Assembly (NCBI GenBank): GCA_029204225.1
Contig: CM055096.1
Location: 42,218,901-42,282,900, forward strand
DNA from: Diphasiastrum complanatum
Lineage: Eukaryota; Streptophyta; Lycopodiopsida; Lycopodiales; Lycopodiaceae
Direction of reading: 5' to 3'
DNA: 64,000 nucleotides
The notes beneath the pieces are model-generated. The model searched no databases and was not told the DNA's origin. It worked only from the letters and a program-made list of their open reading frames with translations. This document shows, in pieces, positions 151 to 9,500 of the stretch. Within the stretch, counting starts at the first letter, position 1. Each line of letters starts with the position of its first letter. Both the position numbers and the translations under genes were made by a program.

Positions 151-618
151 TTATCTTATCTTCATGTTAAGTGAGTAGAATGGTGCGTAAATACACCTTA
201 TAACCTGATATCTCAATTGGATCAAGTTATGTTTTTCTGAAAGATAAGTGATGGCATCCTTCTTCATATAGTTGTATATAATTATTAGATTTTTCTCGTC
301 TGCAAGCACCCTATTTGCCAAGGCATATACAGATCCAGTTTGCTTGAGCAATTCAAATGATTTCATGTAGAATCTTGTAAAACTATCAATGGAAGCAATT
401 TTGAAGTTACTCCAAAGTTTTCTGATTGGATGTGCTTGAGTATCCCACAATGCTTGAACTTGTCCTTGAAAGCACAATGAAGCGAAATAGATTTTATCTT
501 CTTCGGAATAATGGCAATGTTGAAAATAAGCTTCTAATTCAGTCAACCAATCATCAATGCTGATTGAACTTGGCTGTCCATCAAAAGCAAGGTCATAAAG
601 TGCGATTTCAGATTGCAT
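151..618 (-). pseudogene. Ty3/gypsy gag fragment
   Basis: A 155-residue open frame resembles the core of a plant Ty3/gypsy gag. It begins with a start like F-D-G-Q-P, followed by D-D-W-L-T-E-L-E-A-Y-F, a charged helix, then F-A-S-L-C-F-Q-G and A-L-W-D-T. This is the usual 'W..E.E.YF ... A...L.G.A..W' layout of retrotransposon gag. Gag would form the nucleocapsid-like particle. No zinc knuckle, protease or RT follows on this strand before the window edge, so only a scrap is visible. The C-terminal third does not resemble gag and may be read-through beyond the homologous part. Family assignment is from pattern only. Confidence 0.6.
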
Positions 619-1784
619 TTCATCAATAGATGGAAGATGAATGTCTTTACTATACGGTAATCCATCATTAATGACTAGTTCTTCTGAAACAGTTTGGATG
701 AGCCCTATTCTGTGCCTGTACTTCTGGGATTGTTAGCTGCGTTGTTGTGGTTCAAAGATTTGTGGTGCCTGTGTTAAAGAGACTTGTGTTGGTGTGGTTC
801 GAGAATTTCTATCGGATCCACTTTTTCACGTTGTTTCTCGATCAACGTCTGTCTCTTTCAAGTGTACATATTTTGGTACTGGTGGACTATGAATTCACCG
901 TCTGAAAATTTATTCAGAATGGTAGTGTTAGGTGCAGGTAGGTTAGGTCTGGACCAGGATTCAAATTTTAGGGCGCAAGGGCTTGGGGCTAGAATTGTAG
1001 GTAGGTAGGGTTAGATCATTTTTTTTATAAAAGCTTCAAAATGAAGAATCGAAAAAAATTTACAAGGGAAGAAAAACTTCAGAGTTGAAGTGTTTTAGTG
1101 CTTCTCTCTCACTTGTAAAAGAAATTTCCAAAATTTTGGTAATTCTGACCCATCTCCACTAATTTGATCATAACTTTCTCAATATTGATTCAAATCACAC
1201 AAACTCAGTACCTCTGAAAAGCTAACAACAAGATCTATCAATCTATAGGATTAGATCAATGATTGGAGGTGATTTGGTAGTTCAAATTAATCACAGAACA
1301 AGTCTAGAAATTTTGAAGAAAGAAAAATAGCAAAACTAGAGCTAAGAATCAAGAATTGTCATAACTCCTTAGATACTAACCCAAATAACCTGCCATATGG
1401 ATTAGATCAAAGCTAAGATAATGCTCTAAAATCTTGTGTATAGAACCTTGAGATTAAAACTCAAATCAAATCTGAAAAATTCAAATCAAGTGAAAGCAAA
1501 ATCCTAGTCACCTATTTTGACAGCTTTTGGGAAAAGTGCAATAACTTTTGCATCTCTCATCCAAATGCCTTGAAAATTTGTGCAAATGAAAGCTAAGACA
1601 AAGCTTGCAAACCTAGAAAATTAGAAATGAAAAATAAAATTGAATGTCAAAAATTGGTCTGAGCAGACCTGAAAATTTCAAACTAGAAGACCAACAATCT
1701 TCTGAAAGCTCACATCCAACGATCAAGTAGACATGTCACAAGGAGTCTCTTGAGAGATGTGTACCACTATTCGAGAAGTTCCTA
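619..1784. other. No gene recognised
   Basis: AT-rich sequence. A 74-codon plus-strand frame near 784-1008 shows no family features. From about 1020 to 1780 the text is typical non-coding plant repeat, with no open frame of note. I see no terminal repeat or promoter that I could defend. Confidence 0.5.
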
Positions 1785-4467
1785 AAATATCCTTAGCTCA
1801 TACACCAATTCCATAACCTCCCAAATCACCATCCAGACAGTTGAAAGGCACAAGGTGCACAAGACTATAAAAGACATAGAGTTTGTTGTTTACTATAGAT
1901 GGACGAACAGGATGGGAAAGATGTTGGGTGTAGTGAATCCTGTGTTGGGGAATGAATGGTTTGAATTGGTGACCAATACTAAATATCAAGCATGGGGATC
2001 ACACTTGGCTTGGAAAAGCTACATTCCTTGCGTTGTTCTTCAGTTTCAAATGATACTAAATGCAAGTGGTTGAAGTGGTGTATTGGTCCAATGAGCGGCT
2101 AATTTGGTGTCTCCAAAAGTGACAAAGAATTCAGATTATGGGTTGCCAGAGAAACTTGGCTGGAGTGTTTAATGGAAACAGCTAACAAAGTGCTAGCGGA
2201 GTGTATGGCTTTACGTAAGTATTTGAAATGTTTTTGCAATTTGGATCAATATTTTGTTCCATATCTCACTCTGATAGTAGATAACATTCCAAGTAATATA
2301 GCATTGACCATAATAATCGGTTCTACTTGTGCTTATATGTCGTGTTCATTGTTGAAAAATAAGAGCCTTATGCAAAATTTTACATTGTTAGGGCCATTGC
2401 ATATTGATGATGATGAGTCACTAGAAGATTATTTCACAGATTTCAAATTGCAATATAGACGAAAAATGTTTGTTGCTATTGAGTGCGACATGGATTTATC
2501 AAAAGGTGCCAAAGAGCAACTAGACATAAGGGGAAGTGCAAAAAGTGTTGTATGGAGGTAAATAAAATATACATTTTTAATTTGTTCAACTGGAGGCAAA
2601 ATTTGTGCACTAAATTTTTGGAGTATAACAATGTTTTATTGTGCATTGCAGGTACATTGCATATCTTGTAAGAAAGAAAAAGGTTGAAAAGATGCCTTAC
2701 TTCAAACTTTGGACACAGAGACAGGATAAAGAGACTTGTATGTATTGTGATAATTATCATTTCTGTGCCAAAAGAAGTCTGAGTGGGAGAGAACAAACAA
2801 TCCCTGGTGGATTGATTTTCCAGAAGGTTCTTGCCCAGAAAATGAAATGGAAAGCTATCACATGCATAGCAGCAGAGCTTTGTCTACCCCTAGTGTGGAT
2901 GTTGATGTACCACACACGAAAGTTGAGATGGGTGCTACATTGGAGAGAAGATTGAAAGAAACAGAATTGTATGGTCCTGATGTAGTGCCTAGACAATGTT
3001 TCGCTAGAGTGGGTCATAAGGGGAAGGAACTTGCAGGGGCTCCATCTATGGACCCATCTTTGGTTGTGACTCCGAGTGCCAAGCGACAACGTGAGGAATT
3101 TGTATTTGCTCGACCTGCACACTACCCACTCACCAGTCATAGCAAGGTTTGTTGAGAATTTTATTTGATAAGTTTGGAACATGTTGTTTTTTTCGCCTAT
3201 GTTGTGTGATTGTGACATATGTTTTTTTTTTTTGTGAGGTAGATATTCACTTTGTGTGGATATTGCGAAATGTGTTGCTGCTAAGACCACTACAGGTGAG
3301 ATGCATACCATTTTGTCTCATATGAAAACAATTTGTGTGGGAAATAGAGCACGACGAGGTAAAAGCGTGCAATACAGCAGCACAGACAAGGTTTTGCTAG
3401 ACTTTCCTACAGGTTTTGTCCCAAATGGTTTTGCTGGAAGGGTGCCTATATGGAATATACCTGATGATAGATTGATGGAGGCATCAATGCAATTCGCATC
3501 AGTAATTGTCGATGATGATGGTCTCGTAGTCAGTATTTTAGGAGTGCCAGAGATACCGACGTTTGTTAGAGTTGCTAAAAAGTCTGGATTGAATGTGGTG
3601 CATCATGCTATTGTGCGAGGGGTGAATAAAGTGCGATGGGATTTCAGGTGAATTTCACCTCAGCATATTTTCTGGCAATGTCATTGTTTTTTTTTTTTTT
3701 TTTTTTCTGGTTTTCGAATCATGATTTTGAATCTACATACCATTTTTCCATAGGTACATATGCTTGTTGTTTATGTCACATGCCGCATCGATTCATCTCC
3801 TTCGATTCCTATGGGTGATTGCGACTCGATTGATCCTTCTCTTTTCCATAGTGCGACTGACCATTGGATACATTACTATCCTCTAGCAGATAGATTGAAA
3901 GATAGTAGTGGTATTCAACCACTGCGTGGAGGAGTCGAAAAGAGCCCCCATTTTATGTATTTCTTAGTGGAAATGTTTTGTAAGCCTTCAGGAGTTGTGG
4001 TTGATCCTTTTCTGGGTTGTGGAGGATCATTGAATGCATGCGGAAGTACCAGTCGACATTGCATAGCAATGGATTTTGATCAAGCCATCGTCGATATGGC
4101 CACCCTACAATTAGTATTAGTACAAAAATGATATTTCAAATTTATTTTGTTAATGTTAAACACACCATATCTTGTTATGCAAAATCGTCCACTTTTGTCG
4201 CACATGCACAACAAATTGATTTGGATGAAGAGGAAGACGTGCAAAATGAAACATGGAATTTTGATGAGTTTCAAAATTGATATGTCAAATTTATAATGCA
4301 TTCTTCGCTTGTTTCGATTCAATGTTGTGCTTGAGTATGCTATCATAACGTTAGTTGTTTGCCATCCTATGCAGAGGCAGCGGCTAGAGCCATGGTACTT
4401 CATGAGGCTACACCAACATTAAGAAAACGTAAACAACCTTCACGAAGTATATATGTTGATGATGAGT
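1785..4467 (+). CDS. Beta-class DNA amino-methyltransferase-like gene, multi-exon, possibly decayed
   Basis: Several coding-like blocks on the plus strand are separated by plausible GT-AG introns: about 1785-2030, 2052-2212 (donor GTAAGT at 2213), blocks within 2280-3148, about 3243-3648, 3756-4131 and 4375-4467. The last large block has the C-terminal signature of beta-class N4/N6 DNA methyltransferases: K-S-P-H-F near 3941-3955, then V-V-V-D-P-F-L-G-C-G-G-S at 3994-4029 (motif I, SAM binding), then A-M-D-F-D at 4066-4080 (acidic motif II). The catalytic motif IV should lie upstream in this class. The best candidate is L-D-F-P-T-G-F near 3400, which is not the canonical D/S-P-P-Y/W. A stop (TAA) sits in the 2052-2212 block at about 2091, and frames change near 2757. 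The gene is therefore either spliced in a way I have not resolved or partly broken. The last block is basic (R-K-R-K-Q). The N-terminal blocks match nothing I know. The class assignment is firm for the C-terminal part; activity is not shown. Confidence 0.55.
3243..3648 (+). CDS. Exon of the methylase-like gene: presumed catalytic half
   Basis: The block opens after a T-rich tract ending in GTAG, a good acceptor. It runs in one frame to about 3648, where AAA|GTGCGA (about 3630) or CAG|GTGAAT (about 3648) could serve as donor. The protein includes V-D-I-A-K-C-V-A-A-K-T, a basic R-A-R-R-G, L-L-D-F-P-T-G-F, W-N-I-P, and V-V-S-I-L-G-V-P-E followed by an alpha-like stretch. The order 'xDxPT ... long hydrophobic strand ... 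helix' is what motifs IV-V of beta-class enzymes look like. The consensus Pro-Pro pair is missing. Only the AAA|GTGCGA donor keeps phase with the next block. Confidence 0.5.
3756..4131 (+). CDS. Exon of the methylase-like gene: SAM-binding motif I
   Basis: This block follows the acceptor CCATAG at about 3750. It carries the clearest domain signal of the gene: a helix-forming stretch S-P-H-F-M-Y-F-L-V-E-M-F, then the motif I loop D-P-F-L-G-C-G-G-S at 4003-4029, then A-M-D-F-D ending at 4080. Family enzymes have D-P-F-x-G-S-G-T; here the second glycine pair reads C-G-G-S. Open reading ends with TGA at 4129. A real transcript would have to splice before that stop to reach the basic block at 4375. 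Confidence 0.6.
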
Positions 4468-5910
4468 GTGAGTAGTAGTGTTAGGTCACTTCTTTCTCAT
4501 GTGAATTTCATCTCGTATCCCGTAAATGCTAAAGTACTACTTGAACTCACATATCGTACATTGGCATCTGGATTGAAGACCAATTTTATGGTTTTGGAAT
4601 GGCCCAAAGTTTGTTTTGGTCTTGATTTACAAGAACATCTCAATGTCATAGGTTCGTGAGTTGTGATTTTTTGTTTTGGTAAATGGTATTCTAATATGGG
4701 GTATGCATTGGTATTCTAATATGCACAATAATTGCCAATGAAGTTGGATTAAAAATGTTGAGATCTTTTATATTGAGACATGCAGTTACGGTTTTTATTT
4801 TTGTACTCCAAAATGCAATTTAATTGCGAGTAAAGTTGGATTAAAATTTCTAAGAACTTTCATAATGAGATAACACTAAAAGATAATGTCATAGAGGCTT
4901 GTGCTTTCACTATCATGAAGTGGATCGATCTTGTCGTCCTCTACATTGGGAAATGATTTGAGAGATATTTTCATATATAGTAATTGCCCCACTGTGAAAT
5001 AACACAGTCACGCTTTCCTTAAAAACATGTGGACTATATGTATAATACCACGTGAGTCCTAGCATAAGCGACGCGAGTTCCAACATACATGCTCACTTAA
5101 TAGTCTCATTTTTTGTTGATCTTGCCAATCAAATATATCGATATCCTAAAACTCGCAAAACTCGCATTCTATTTACTCGCAAAATGGTTGAACTCAACAT
5201 GGAATAGGCATGATGATGTTGCAAATGCTTTAAATTTTGAGCATTTCTGTACATTTTCTGTGCCAGTACATGTAGTAGATTTAGGGATCAACTAGCAAGG
5301 GCCTTGCTTGGCCCACACACAGATTCTAATTTTCTTTGAGGCCTGCCTAGATTGTCCAATCTTCCAAACTTTTAACCAGATCGCAATTCGACCTTTGAGA
5401 AGCAAGCGTATATGCCGACCTCGACCTCAATGTGACCAATAATTGATCTTACCTTTGTAAGGCAAGTCTAGAAATCAAGCATATGAATGGCTTCTGAAGA
5501 CAGTTTGTTTTCTTACCAAACACATCAAGATCGGTTAACAAAGTACTTTTCAGGAAATCAATTAAAAAAGGGCCAGCTGATGCTCTTCTGTTTAACTTGA
5601 GAAGCGTCCTTTCAAGATCCAAATACCTTTGGGACGTGACAACAGGGACCTAATGAAAAAAGTAAAGCACTCAAAGCCAACAGAAGACAAACTGATGAAT
5701 CTTAATACAAAGGTGCCTTCAAGTCTTTAAAGTCACTGCACGGTGCTAACATTGTCAAACGAACAGAGTAAAGTCTCATCGCCAACTTATTGCAAATTAT
5801 ACAAAAGAAGAATATAACAAGTGGGAAAGCTATATGCATTGTTCAGAAGAGATTCTACTTGCATACCTGGGCAACCTTCTGATTATGAAGTACTACCAGG
5901 CAAGTGTTTA

Positions 5911-5928
5911 GAGAGAGAGAGAGAGAGA
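5911..5928. repeat. (GA)n microsatellite
   Basis: A pure GA tract of about 18 bases in the presumed 3' flank of the minus-strand PP2C gene. Confidence 0.85.
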
Positions 5929-6174
5929 ATATGTATGCTGTTTTGGAGAAAAGGCGTTTCGGAGCTTCTCATTGGTCCACGTTTGCCCTAAAATGTATTT
6001 GAAGGGCATTTGAAAAGCAGTTGAAGTGAGAGAACCTGTGCTTTTAGAAGCTTCTAGAAAGAGAAGTTTCTAGAGAGAGACGGTATAAAATCGCGATGGC
6101 AAGAGAAAAAGAGGAGCACGAGAGTGTGCAGATTTTTCATTTTTTAGGGTTTTCTAGTTTTGGGAGAGAAGCGA

Positions 6175-6178
<4 letters not shown>

Positions 6179-6214
<36 letters not shown>
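6179..6214. repeat. (GA)n microsatellite
   Basis: About 36 bases of GA followed by a short GACA run. It ends 19 bases past the PP2C stop codon (minus strand), so it would lie in the 3' UTR. Confidence 0.9.
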
Positions 6215-6232: not shown

Positions 6233-6556
6233 TCAAGGTGATCTTTCAAGCTTCTTAGCGGAGTTCTCTGTTCCCACAATGACGAAAGAAACAATTACAG
6301 TGATATCATCCAACTTTCCTCCATAGAATGGAACACCAGCAAATTGAGCAGCAGTTGAAAATGGAGTTTCACAATGAGGATCTTGTGCTTGCACTCTTGC
6401 AAAGTCAGCTAATTCTTTAGCTGTTGCACCAGGTCCCAAACCAGCTTGGGTTGACTTCAGCACAATTGTCTTCAGTTCATGATCAAAGACGTTATCAAAC
6501 AAGCCATCCGTCCCTAAGACAATGATGTCTCCAGCTTTCACTTGTAAAGAAAATAC
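6233..6556 (-). CDS. PP2C exon 4 (C-terminal)
   Basis: Codes residues 386-492. It starts after CTTTAG| in phase 0 with V-F-S-L-Q-V-K-A-G-D. It carries the third metal-site Asp in G-T-D-G-L-F-D-N and the last Asp pair in G-G-K-L-D-D, then a short Lys/Arg-rich tail and TGA at 6235-6233. Confidence 0.9.
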   Translation of the reverse strand, partial: VFSLQVKAGDIIVLGTDGLFDNVFDHELKTIVLKSTQAGLGPGATAKELADFARVQAQDPHCETPFSTAAQFAGVPFYGGKLDDITVIVSFVIVGTENSAKKLERSP

Positions 6557-9500
6557 CTAAAGTCAGTGACCACCAGGACTGTGTTAGTACATTAGCCACA
6601 CAGAATGAAACTCTGATCAGAACATGTTCAAACTTGACTTACCTCAGCTGCACTAGGAGGATCACTGCTCTCACTTCCTAATTGATATGGAAAATTGAAG
6701 GAATGCTGCTGAGGAGTTGATTTGAAAATTACACGCCCATTTCTCACAATAACAAATCCACTATCACCAAGATTGGCTGCTTGCAGGCCCTGAGACAATT
6801 ATTGAAACAGTTTCAAAAAGGAACAATCCTAGGAAAACACGCTTTTTAGATTACAAAACCTGCCTCACAATGAGAGACCTGTATTAAAATTCTACCATTC
6901 AACTAGAAAAAAAGGTATATGAATTGATCACAATAAATCTAAACTAACGTAATACTAAACGCTTTCTGAGTTTCACAAGGTAGCTTTGCTAATTAGTGTT
7001 AAATGAAGTTGGAAATCATCAATGAACGTATCAAAAGAACATATTGATAAACTGGAAAGAGGCAAAGATAAAATTGCATGAAGGCTAGAGCTATATTGAT
7101 TTAGTCAATTGCAAACCAAAAAGACATTGGAGTGAAAAAAGTTAATTCTACAAGATGGAGGACCACTAGAGATGCAGCCACACTCATTATTCGTTTCACC
7201 TCCCTTGAGAGTCGCCGAGATGCTTTGCGGTGCAGAGCTAAGCTATGTGGTACCGCTATCTATATGGATGATGACCTCACATATATCCAAGTAGAGGAGA
7301 GGCATAAGGCCTTTTAGGTAGCCCGTGAGTCTGGCTACGAGTAATTTACTGAGATGGACGAGTGCGCTTTCTTGACAACGCCCCTAGCAGCTCCCAGTGC
7401 TATGACCTCCGCATATGGACTGACTACGCTACCACCCTATATACCATACCCACTGACGTACCCATCTCTATCTCCCCACGCCCCTCTAAGTTCACCTTCT
7501 TCACCTCTGACATGGTTTTTGCGGCCATCAAGAGAATGAAGTCCCATAAGGCAAGAGATATCGAAAAGACCTTGAATCTGAACTCCTAACCCATGCTTCC
7601 GACCTCCTTGCTCCCACACTAGCCACTCTCCTCAATTCCGCTGTTGTCTCTGGTTTCCCCTCACCATGGTGCACCAAATCCACCCTATTCATAAAAATGG
7701 TGATCCCATGATTCCTGGTAATTACCGCACCATCATGATCAGACATGTTCTCACGAAGCTCTATGGTACCATACTCTAGTCTGCAATGAGTTCAGAGGCG
7801 GAAGCTAGGAGATTACATGCATTGGGGTAGGCAGGTTTCCGATCTCATTATTCTACCACTGACCATATTTTTACACTTTGAGCTTTGATTGAGGAAGCTA
7901 AGTACAGGCTAGAGGGTCTACTACTGTTTTGTGGACTTCACGAAAGCCTTCGATTCTGTACCACGCTCCCTGCTCATTTAGAGACTTCGTGACTTTGGTT
8001 TCTCCACAGATATTGTTCTAGCAGTGATGGCTCTTTATGAAAAGGTCTTGGGATGTTTCTGACATGGCAGTGGCCTATCTGATCACATTTGGAGCACCAT
8101 TGGGGTGAAACAAGGATGTTCTCTTTCACCGATTCTCTTTGGATTGTACATTGATGAGTTAGAGCGAGTCATCTCATAGTGTGGCGGGGGTGGCTGTAGA
8201 CTTGGCACCATTCTGATTGTTATTCTCCTTTATGCGGATGATGTAGTACTAGTATCCCCGACCAGAGAGGGTTTGCAGAGACAGCTGGATTGTTTACAGG
8301 GATTTTGTACCAGATGGGGATTGGGGGTGAACATTGCAAAGACCAAGGTTATGGTCTTCAACACTTCTCGAGCCTTCATGCAACGCCAGGAGCTCATCCT
8401 AGACGGACAGGCCTTAGAGGTAGTTTCCTCTTATACTTATTTGGGGATTCTCTTTTTTGGTCCTACCTTCAGCATGCGACAGGCTGCCACCACCCGACTT
8501 GGCAAGGGGCATTCCTCTCTTGTTCAGCTTCAGCGGTTCTGCTTCAGGATGCTCATCCGAGATTCTCGCAGTAAGTGTAGACTTTTCGATACTATTGTCA
8601 CCCCCACAGCCTTGTATGTAGCAGAGACATGGTGTACCGGCCTCCCTTCATCACACTGGGACAAGATTCTCCCATTGCAGACCACCATGTTAGTTCATAT
8701 GATTCGGGCGAAGCCCTCGGTTCCACACGAGATTCTTCTTGCAAATTTTGCCGTTCCACCCATTCAGATAGATGCCACGTTCCAGCTTATCGCATACACT
8801 CAGAGAGTCCAGGCTCTGCCCGATGAGGATATGAGATATACACAGACAGCACTTGTTTCCTTGCAATTCATGACCAGGGCTATCGACTATCGTGGTTCTC
8901 CCAGGCATCCCACTTCCTCCTTGTGTCATTTGGTATCTCCATTATAGAGCTCCTCTCAGGTACTCATCAGTTTATCAGGCGCATCTTATATCGGGCATAT
9001 CTCGATCGTACTTGGAGGCGACAGCTTGGGGTTAAACCCGACTATTACTGGACTCATTTTATTGAGCTTGACATAGCAAGGTTCCTGGTCATACCACGAT
9101 TGCCTCAGATTTACATTGGGACAGATCTGCGTATCATCACATCAATTGGCTATTGAGACTGGTAGATTCCAGGGTACCCCGAGAGAGGAGTGGATTTGCC
9201 AGTTATGCTCCTTAGATGAGGTGGAGTCAGAGGAGCACTTTATCTTCAGGTGCCAGGTGTATTACGAGATCAGAGGGAGATACCACTGTTTGTTCCGTGA
9301 CACATCTGTCACCTTACGATCGCTCATAGCTTATGAGGACTCCCGATGTGCTGCACTCATGATACGAGAGATGTTTATCCTACGACAGGATTTGTATCAG
9401 ACAGCCCAGCAGAGTCATGTTTCTCAGCCTCAGATCACTTCTTGCTTCTCTAGGAGGAGAGGATGAGTATTTGATGACGACGACGATGATGATGATGATG

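Follow-up and report, generated by a model that had tools for sequence, protein, structure and literature searches.

Some Mutator-like elements (MULEs) carry accessory genes that counter silencing (PMC5735166, PMC13317346). As described in excerpts of the sources cited here and below, the VANC proteins of Arabidopsis VANDAL elements attach to short motifs that occur in clusters and remove methylation from the family they belong to (PMC5735166), and Ulp1 MULEs have been tabulated as well (PMC13317346). Here we describe a transposon family of Diphasiastrum complanatum (Lycopodiaceae), one copy of which lies in a 64,000-nucleotide stretch of contig CM055096.1 (assembly GCA_029204225.1, positions 42,218,901 to 42,282,900, forward strand), hereafter the window. 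The family shares with VANDAL and KIU/Ulp1 MULEs a SWIM transposase partner and 9-bp target duplications, and likewise has an extra intron-bearing gene and clustered short non-coding motifs (PMC5735166, PMC6446971, PMC13317346). In place of the VANC domains DUF1985/DUF287 and Ulp1, its extra gene has a methyltransferase fold, to which an anti-silencing role might be assigned by analogy. We consider it fairly probable that the window holds a dead, left-truncated MULE-type copy, and that the accessory protein of intact members is a VANC-like factor built on an S-adenosylmethionine (SAM)-binding fold rather than a standard writer of base methylation.

Beta-class amino-methyltransferases (PF01555; DpnA, CcrM and phage fusions) resemble the window family in the order of their motifs, with catalytic motif IV preceding SAM-binding motif I, in the motif D-P-F-x-G-C-G and in a K-S-P/K-P lead-in. 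They have D-P-P-Y at motif IV, whereas the window family has D-F-P-T and, unlike them, a plant-specific N-terminal part of ~750 residues, introns and a location on a eukaryotic DNA transposon. By their descriptions, the rotifer N4CMT (PMC8885841) and Marchantia MpDN4MT1a/b (PMC8566409) are comparable as eukaryotic amino-methyltransferases of bacterial type; N4CMT, however, is a host gene with SPPY and a chromodomain, whereas the gene considered here has D-F-P-T and belongs to a transposon. Charophyte and dinoflagellate DNMT retrotransposons also place a DNA-methyltransferase domain on a plant-lineage transposon (PMC5890265), but theirs are C5 methyltransferases and ours is an amino-methyltransferase fold on a DNA transposon. 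Searches of the open-access PMC literature found no report of a MULE that carries an amino-methyltransferase gene, and a review from 2026 on how plant transposons capture genes does not use the word ‘methyltransferase’ in its main text (PMC13317346); a plant MULE-type element with a gene of this fold is apparently undescribed.

An initial annotation of the window had proposed a beta-class amino-methyltransferase signature, with a catalytic block upstream of the SAM motif. The peptide on which it was based, EKSPHFMYFLVEMFCKPSGVVVDPFLGCGGS...HCIAMDFD, is indeed encoded in a + strand reading frame at 3754–4131, which matches PF01555 with an E-value of 7.5e-7 (29.7 bits, against a Pfam cut-off of 26.7); the corresponding exon of an intact relative, L022, also matches PF01555, with 36.4 bits. 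DpnA (PDB 5hek) matches the motif I exon of the window at E 5.6e-4. The other half of the domain was found upstream, at 3244–3647, where NCBIfam PRK13699 gives a weak match to that segment alone (E 0.046). A profile of ten family copies aligned by hhalign with a profile of 37 phage ParB–methyltransferase fusion proteins (38 were picked and one was dropped for a stop) scored 96.5%, E 7e-10, over 173 columns that run from motif IV through motif I, in that order, while the phage profile with its columns reversed scored 0.1%. Because the alignment spans both motifs and the reversed control does not score, we take the permuted order to be real. MAFFT independently pairs the DFPT of the window with phage DPPY, and DPFLGCG with phage DPFLGSG. 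With the curated PF01555 cut-off exceeded and the order from motif IV to motif I present, these comparisons show that the accessory protein ends in an amino-methyltransferase fold of permuted (beta) order, in which SAM motif I is conserved. The signature and the motif order proposed at the outset therefore stand, and the PF01555 search suggested with them returned a match rather than a blank. An AlphaFold2 model of the window domain (intron read through, 16 phage rows) had a mean predicted local distance difference test score of 32 and was not used.

The presumed catalytic block is thus present, but its tetrapeptide reads D-F-P-T and not (D/N/S)PP(Y/F/W). Motif IV could be aligned in 35 distinct copies: DFPT occurs 20 times, DFST six times, NFST and DLPS twice each, and DFPK, DFPI, NFPT, DFLT and DYPS once each; none has (D/N/S)PP(Y/F/W). 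In this tally L001, which is the window place, is counted once, five further matches missed the site, and at some loci that exon went unmatched. In motif I most copies read D-P-F-x-G-C-G. D-F-P-T is conserved in the constrained pair L022 and L023, described below, and is therefore what selection keeps there. In the rotifer enzyme, the change from SPPY to APPA abolished N4-methylcytosine (4mC; PMC8885841). Because motif IV never takes the (D/N/S)PP(Y/F/W) form, the writing of 4mC or N6-methyladenine (6mA) is unproven, and the retention of D-F-P-T together with the rotifer result makes a standard 4mC/6mA writer doubtful. The base-modifying enzyme envisaged in the initial annotation accordingly finds no support in these motifs; judged from its sequence, the D-F-P-T fold may have an altered chemistry or another substrate.

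The same genome holds a second multicopy PF01555 family (L095–L106; e.g. L098:684–875 and 977–1600), for which the best 150 of 1,605 candidates were scored, all above the Pfam cut-off. Its motif IV is D-I-P-Y (CIADIPYGF), seen in at least six of the 12 loci examined, and its motif I is D-L-F-S-G-S-G-T-T. In its catalytic motif this DIPY family is closer to the canonical form than the family of the window is.

The gene is not a single-copy one. In the 1.745-Gb genome, the motif I exon gave at least 151 matches from 1,021 first-look candidates and the N-terminal exon of the intact relative at least 151 from 1,139, both counts being lower bounds because the best 150 candidates were scored. When the copies are compared as DNA, the match to the window begins at exactly 1850 in many of them and ends at exactly 5195 in several. 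At this right boundary homology ends at the same base in L027, L028, L030, L031 and L032, which have unrelated flanks (L029, a 99.8% duplicate of L030, is not one of the five), and other subfamilies end in the related sequence ...ACTCGCAAATTGTCTAGACTC. An 18-base terminal pattern has 48 exact copies in the genome, 24 per strand, and none when read backwards; exact head-to-head termini were not found with it. A right-end scan of 13 loci matched L013, L014, L025 and L019, and left L015–L018, L020, L021, L024, L022 and L023 unmatched, such absence being weak evidence.

Left ends start with GGGGCCTGACAAATTGCGAGTAAATA in L060, L062, L063, L064 and L069 and, in diverged form, in L065. In three elements, 37–39 of 47–49 bases match between the left end and the reverse-complemented right end (scores 39–50; best of 200 shuffles 13–20), and in a fourth 33 of 44 do (score 17 against 11 for the best shuffle). 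The right terminus of the window copy matches the left terminus of L062 at 36 of 49 bases (score 38; 200 shuffles gave at most 11). The 9-mers that flank these elements agree at eight of nine positions in three of the four (CATATCCAC/T, CTC/TCTCTGC-type and A[T/A]AATAGAG), and target-site duplications of MULEs are 8–11 bp long (PMC6446971). At C3:36.161–36.175 Mb and C1:51.939–51.946 Mb, outer inverted repeats with target duplications outside them enclose both the accessory gene and its divergent neighbour; of the C11 element (~3.7 kb) only the ends were read. The copies keep their introns and hence spread as DNA. A helitron-like element, or one lacking terminal inverted repeats, had been entertained and was dropped once the left terminus was found.

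The neighbouring gene, upstream and divergent, ends in a SWIM zinc finger (PF04434, E 7e-5, 22.7 bits against a cut-off of 19.6). Pairings were counted among the matches listed, with 139 transcribed places in the SWIM list and 146 in the methyltransferase list. A divergent SWIM place lies no more than 12 kb upstream of nine of the 150 transcribed N-terminal-exon places, and one lies downstream on the same strand in a single case; on 16 large contigs six divergent pairs were observed, whereas 500 random placements averaged 0.05 and never gave more than one. The methyltransferase list yields five divergent SWIM pairs. The two genes are likewise arranged divergently in a distant subfamily, L194 (C21), whose transposase pieces are 35–63% identical. 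Terminal inverted repeats, a 9-bp duplication and a zinc finger are thus present and a DDE transposase domain is not. On these features the family is a Mutator-type DNA transposon, the superfamily assignment resting on the ends, the duplication length and the SWIM finger because no DDE domain was recognised; as the other pieces of the left gene have no Pfam transposase match, we call it MULE-type and not a proven MULE. The suggestion that the gene might be transposon-borne is borne out by the ends, the target duplications and the transposase-like partner.

In four elements the intergenic stretch contains three to eight copies of GCCAGGCAAA, mostly palindromic, an array that is suggestive of candidate binding sites; GCCAGGCAAA does not occur in the 64-kb window, in L194 or in the part of C3601 that was read. 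Palindrome clusters of the form GCCAGGCAAA-N-TTTGCCTGGC lie between the divergent genes in L056/L059, L054, L034/L057 and L055, often flanked by TTGCGAGC/GCTCGCAA, which recall the ACTCGC repeats of the termini.

The reading frame stays open across eight modelled GT-AG exons in two relatives, L022 (C8:33.10 Mb) and L023 (C12:11.49 Mb), which encode proteins of 995 and 998 residues that are 79% identical; their first and last exons are uncertain, as each gene has a good donor where its model ends. The GT-AG exons of L022 agree with the earlier view of a eukaryotic, intron-bearing member. The ratio of non-synonymous to synonymous substitution (dN/dS, NG86) between the two is 0.168 over 993 codons, with a dS of 0.66; the values by part are 0.12 (N-terminal domain), 0.09 (middle) and 0.11–0.12 (methyltransferase domain), with higher ones in the N-terminal tail and the linker (0.41 and 0.53). 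With a ratio of 0.17 overall and 0.11 in the methyltransferase domain the protein is constrained, and the two intact copies are kept under purifying selection. Their protein probably does something, perhaps not ordinary DNA methylation.

Could a host gene family of the L022/L023 type have been captured and multiplied by a MULE, Pack-MULE style, with no part in transposition? Capture would fit the absence of any transposase-like gene within ~8 kb upstream of L022 or L023 and of any recognisable terminus in the loci read, the latter a weak test in that seven other family loci were likewise unmatched and L023 was read 0.7 kb past the motif I exon, where the window copy ends ~1.06 kb past it. The relaxed dN/dS of 14 close pairs of mobile copies within subfamilies (0.34–0.76) would fit it too. 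However, the accessory gene adjoins the transposase-like gene in divergent subfamilies, and because this pairing recurs, one old association is simpler. Three between-subfamily pairs have dN/dS of 0.12–0.22, with dS saturated, and in a tree of 41 copies (midpoint root) L022 and L023 form a pair (support 100/99) nested inside the family and sister (95/82) to the clade with L019, which has the right terminus. We therefore think capture improbable. The lack of a recognised DDE domain would equally suit some other superfamily with 9-bp duplications, or a composite of two adjacent transposons; this appears very improbable given the outer inverted repeats and target duplications that enclose both genes in the C3 and C1 elements. 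As to the protein itself, it might be a DNA or RNA amino-methyltransferase, active despite D-F-P-T, with which the transposon marks its own element. Motif I and the position of motif IV are conserved, with D first and P third in most copies, the low dN/dS of the methyltransferase domain between L022 and L023 points the same way, and there is some precedent for writers on MULEs, since SET-domain MULEs have been tabulated (PMC6446971). Against such activity, the second proline and the aromatic residue are missing in all 35 aligned copies, and rotifer N4CMT is inactive once the Ser and Tyr of SPPY are replaced (PMC8885841); we judge it unlikely. In a wider form, which we would advance only tentatively, the transposon lineage carries, in deeply separated subfamilies, an amino-methyltransferase-derived writer or reader with a re-engineered catalytic motif (D-F-P-T) that marks or unmarks the transposon's own DNA against silencing, and L022 and L023 are copies kept by the host as constrained genes, giving a vascular plant a transposon-born and possibly non-canonical DNA- or RNA-modifying enzyme.

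We favour the VANC-like SAM-fold factor. An intact element has two divergent genes, a transposase-like one ending in SWIM on the left and an accessory gene of ~1,000 residues on the right. The accessory protein would bind DNA near its element and serve that element, or the host that kept the gene; like VANC or another MULE accessory factor, it might counter silencing or assist transposition, and the SAM fold would be retained for its binding or for a changed chemistry. Several results weigh against this proposal. Only nine of the 150 N-terminal places have a SWIM partner among the matches listed, and in the methyltransferase list three SWIM pairs lie downstream on the same strand. In the fourth of the elements that were read at both ends, the flanking 9-mers agree at five of nine positions, which is no target duplication. 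The pieces of the left gene contain no Pfam transposase (DDE) domain, even at E-values up to 10. Finally, a ParB-like motif in the N-terminal part was not borne out, so that DNA binding is putative. Should the proposal be true, the family would add to the weapons of transposons a new class that draws on a bacterial DNA-methyltransferase fold, and would offer one way for amino-methyltransferase folds to be spread among plants. The interest lies chiefly in the conserved odd catalytic motif and the two constrained copies, which pose the question of new chemistry as opposed to a methyltransferase fold kept merely to bind DNA and SAM; the question is sharp and testable because the altered motif is conserved and purifying selection on the two intact copies is strong.

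The idea of a ParB identity of the N-terminal domain had been prompted by D-G-N-H-R-L, noticed by eye, and by the ParB–methyltransferase fusions of phages (PMC12704722). Pfam lent it no support, PF02195 had no match over the genome, and a PDB profile search gave nothing below E 1. A PHROGs search returned methyltransferase families and one weak unknown, and no ParB; tblastn against plasmids gave one match at E 8, and hhalign against ParB, with one narrow phage family as target, scored 0.09%. A pattern scan of viral contigs for close relatives gave 26 candidates, none of which was confirmed, bacterial and archaeal genomes gave one weak match (41 residues, 37%), and phage tblastn matches were confined to the motif I region. 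The phage NatCom_19828 protein (L110, XTK83165.1) joins PF02195 to PF01555, and such ParB_N-N6_N4_Mtase fusions are abundant in viral contigs (L110 and 598 relatives).

The layout of the window copy is given in Table 1. A relic had been suspected, and the copy indeed has a frame change near 1985, a stop at 2100–2102 and a second frame change near 2770; in L004, unlike the window, both parts of the exon-6 segment share one frame. The gene had been placed at 1785–4467, an extent that needs revision, since the homologous segment runs from 1850 to 5195. Position 1850 falls inside an exon, everything to the left of that exon interior is missing, and 1–1849 is other sequence. By its sequence, then, the feature is a dead, left-truncated transposon copy.

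Table 1. Parts of the transposon copy in the window, numbered from the first base of the window
Feature	Position	Strand	Basis
Transposon remnant (right part): truncated accessory gene, 3' flank, right terminus	1850–5195	+	Copy boundaries
Remnant of exon matching L022 exon 4	1850–2214	+	Translations compared with L022; end by eye from GT donor
Exon of 166 bases, the same length as L022 exon 5, which it matches	2392–2557	+	Splice sites by eye
Remnant of L022 exon 6, first part	2652–3146	+	Start in frame 2653, remainder in frame 2754
Catalytic half of methyltransferase-like domain; D-F-P-T at 3400–3411	3244–3647	+	hhalign, MAFFT, copy comparison, PRK13699 (weak)
SAM-binding half; lead-in EKSPHFMYFLVEMFCKPS, motif I DPFLGCG at 4003–4023	3754–4105	+	PF01555, PDB DpnA
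Relics of acidic and basic coding segments lying downstream (IDLDEEEDVQNETWNFDEFQN; VCYHNVSCLPSYAEAAARAMVLHEATPTLRKRKQPSRSIYVDDECE)	4201–4475	+	Matched in other copies
Right terminal inverted repeat: ACTCGC three times, ending GGTTGAACTC	5146–5195	+	Shared last base; match to L062 left end

The sequence to the left of the copy includes a separate dispersed repeat (956–1684), which adjoins the truncation point at 1850 and has copies elsewhere that are 81–88% identical. The chromosome of the window also holds, at a distance of 35 Mb, a 97–98% duplicate of window 325–6200 (C5:7278853–7284690), which is without window 3911–3988, 78 bases of the motif I exon. Upstream of L022, at L192:7296–7901, a frame resembles, by eye, a plant single-Myb/TRB telomere-binding protein. 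Further along the window, exon-like frames on the − strand at 6233–6556 and 6628–6798 resemble a plant PP2C phosphatase (GDIIVLGTDGLFDN...), and + strand frames at 7100–9150 look like the reverse transcriptase (YADDVVLV...) of a non-long-terminal-repeat retrotransposon, both by eye; L022:495–1073 matches window 8393–8991 in reverse.

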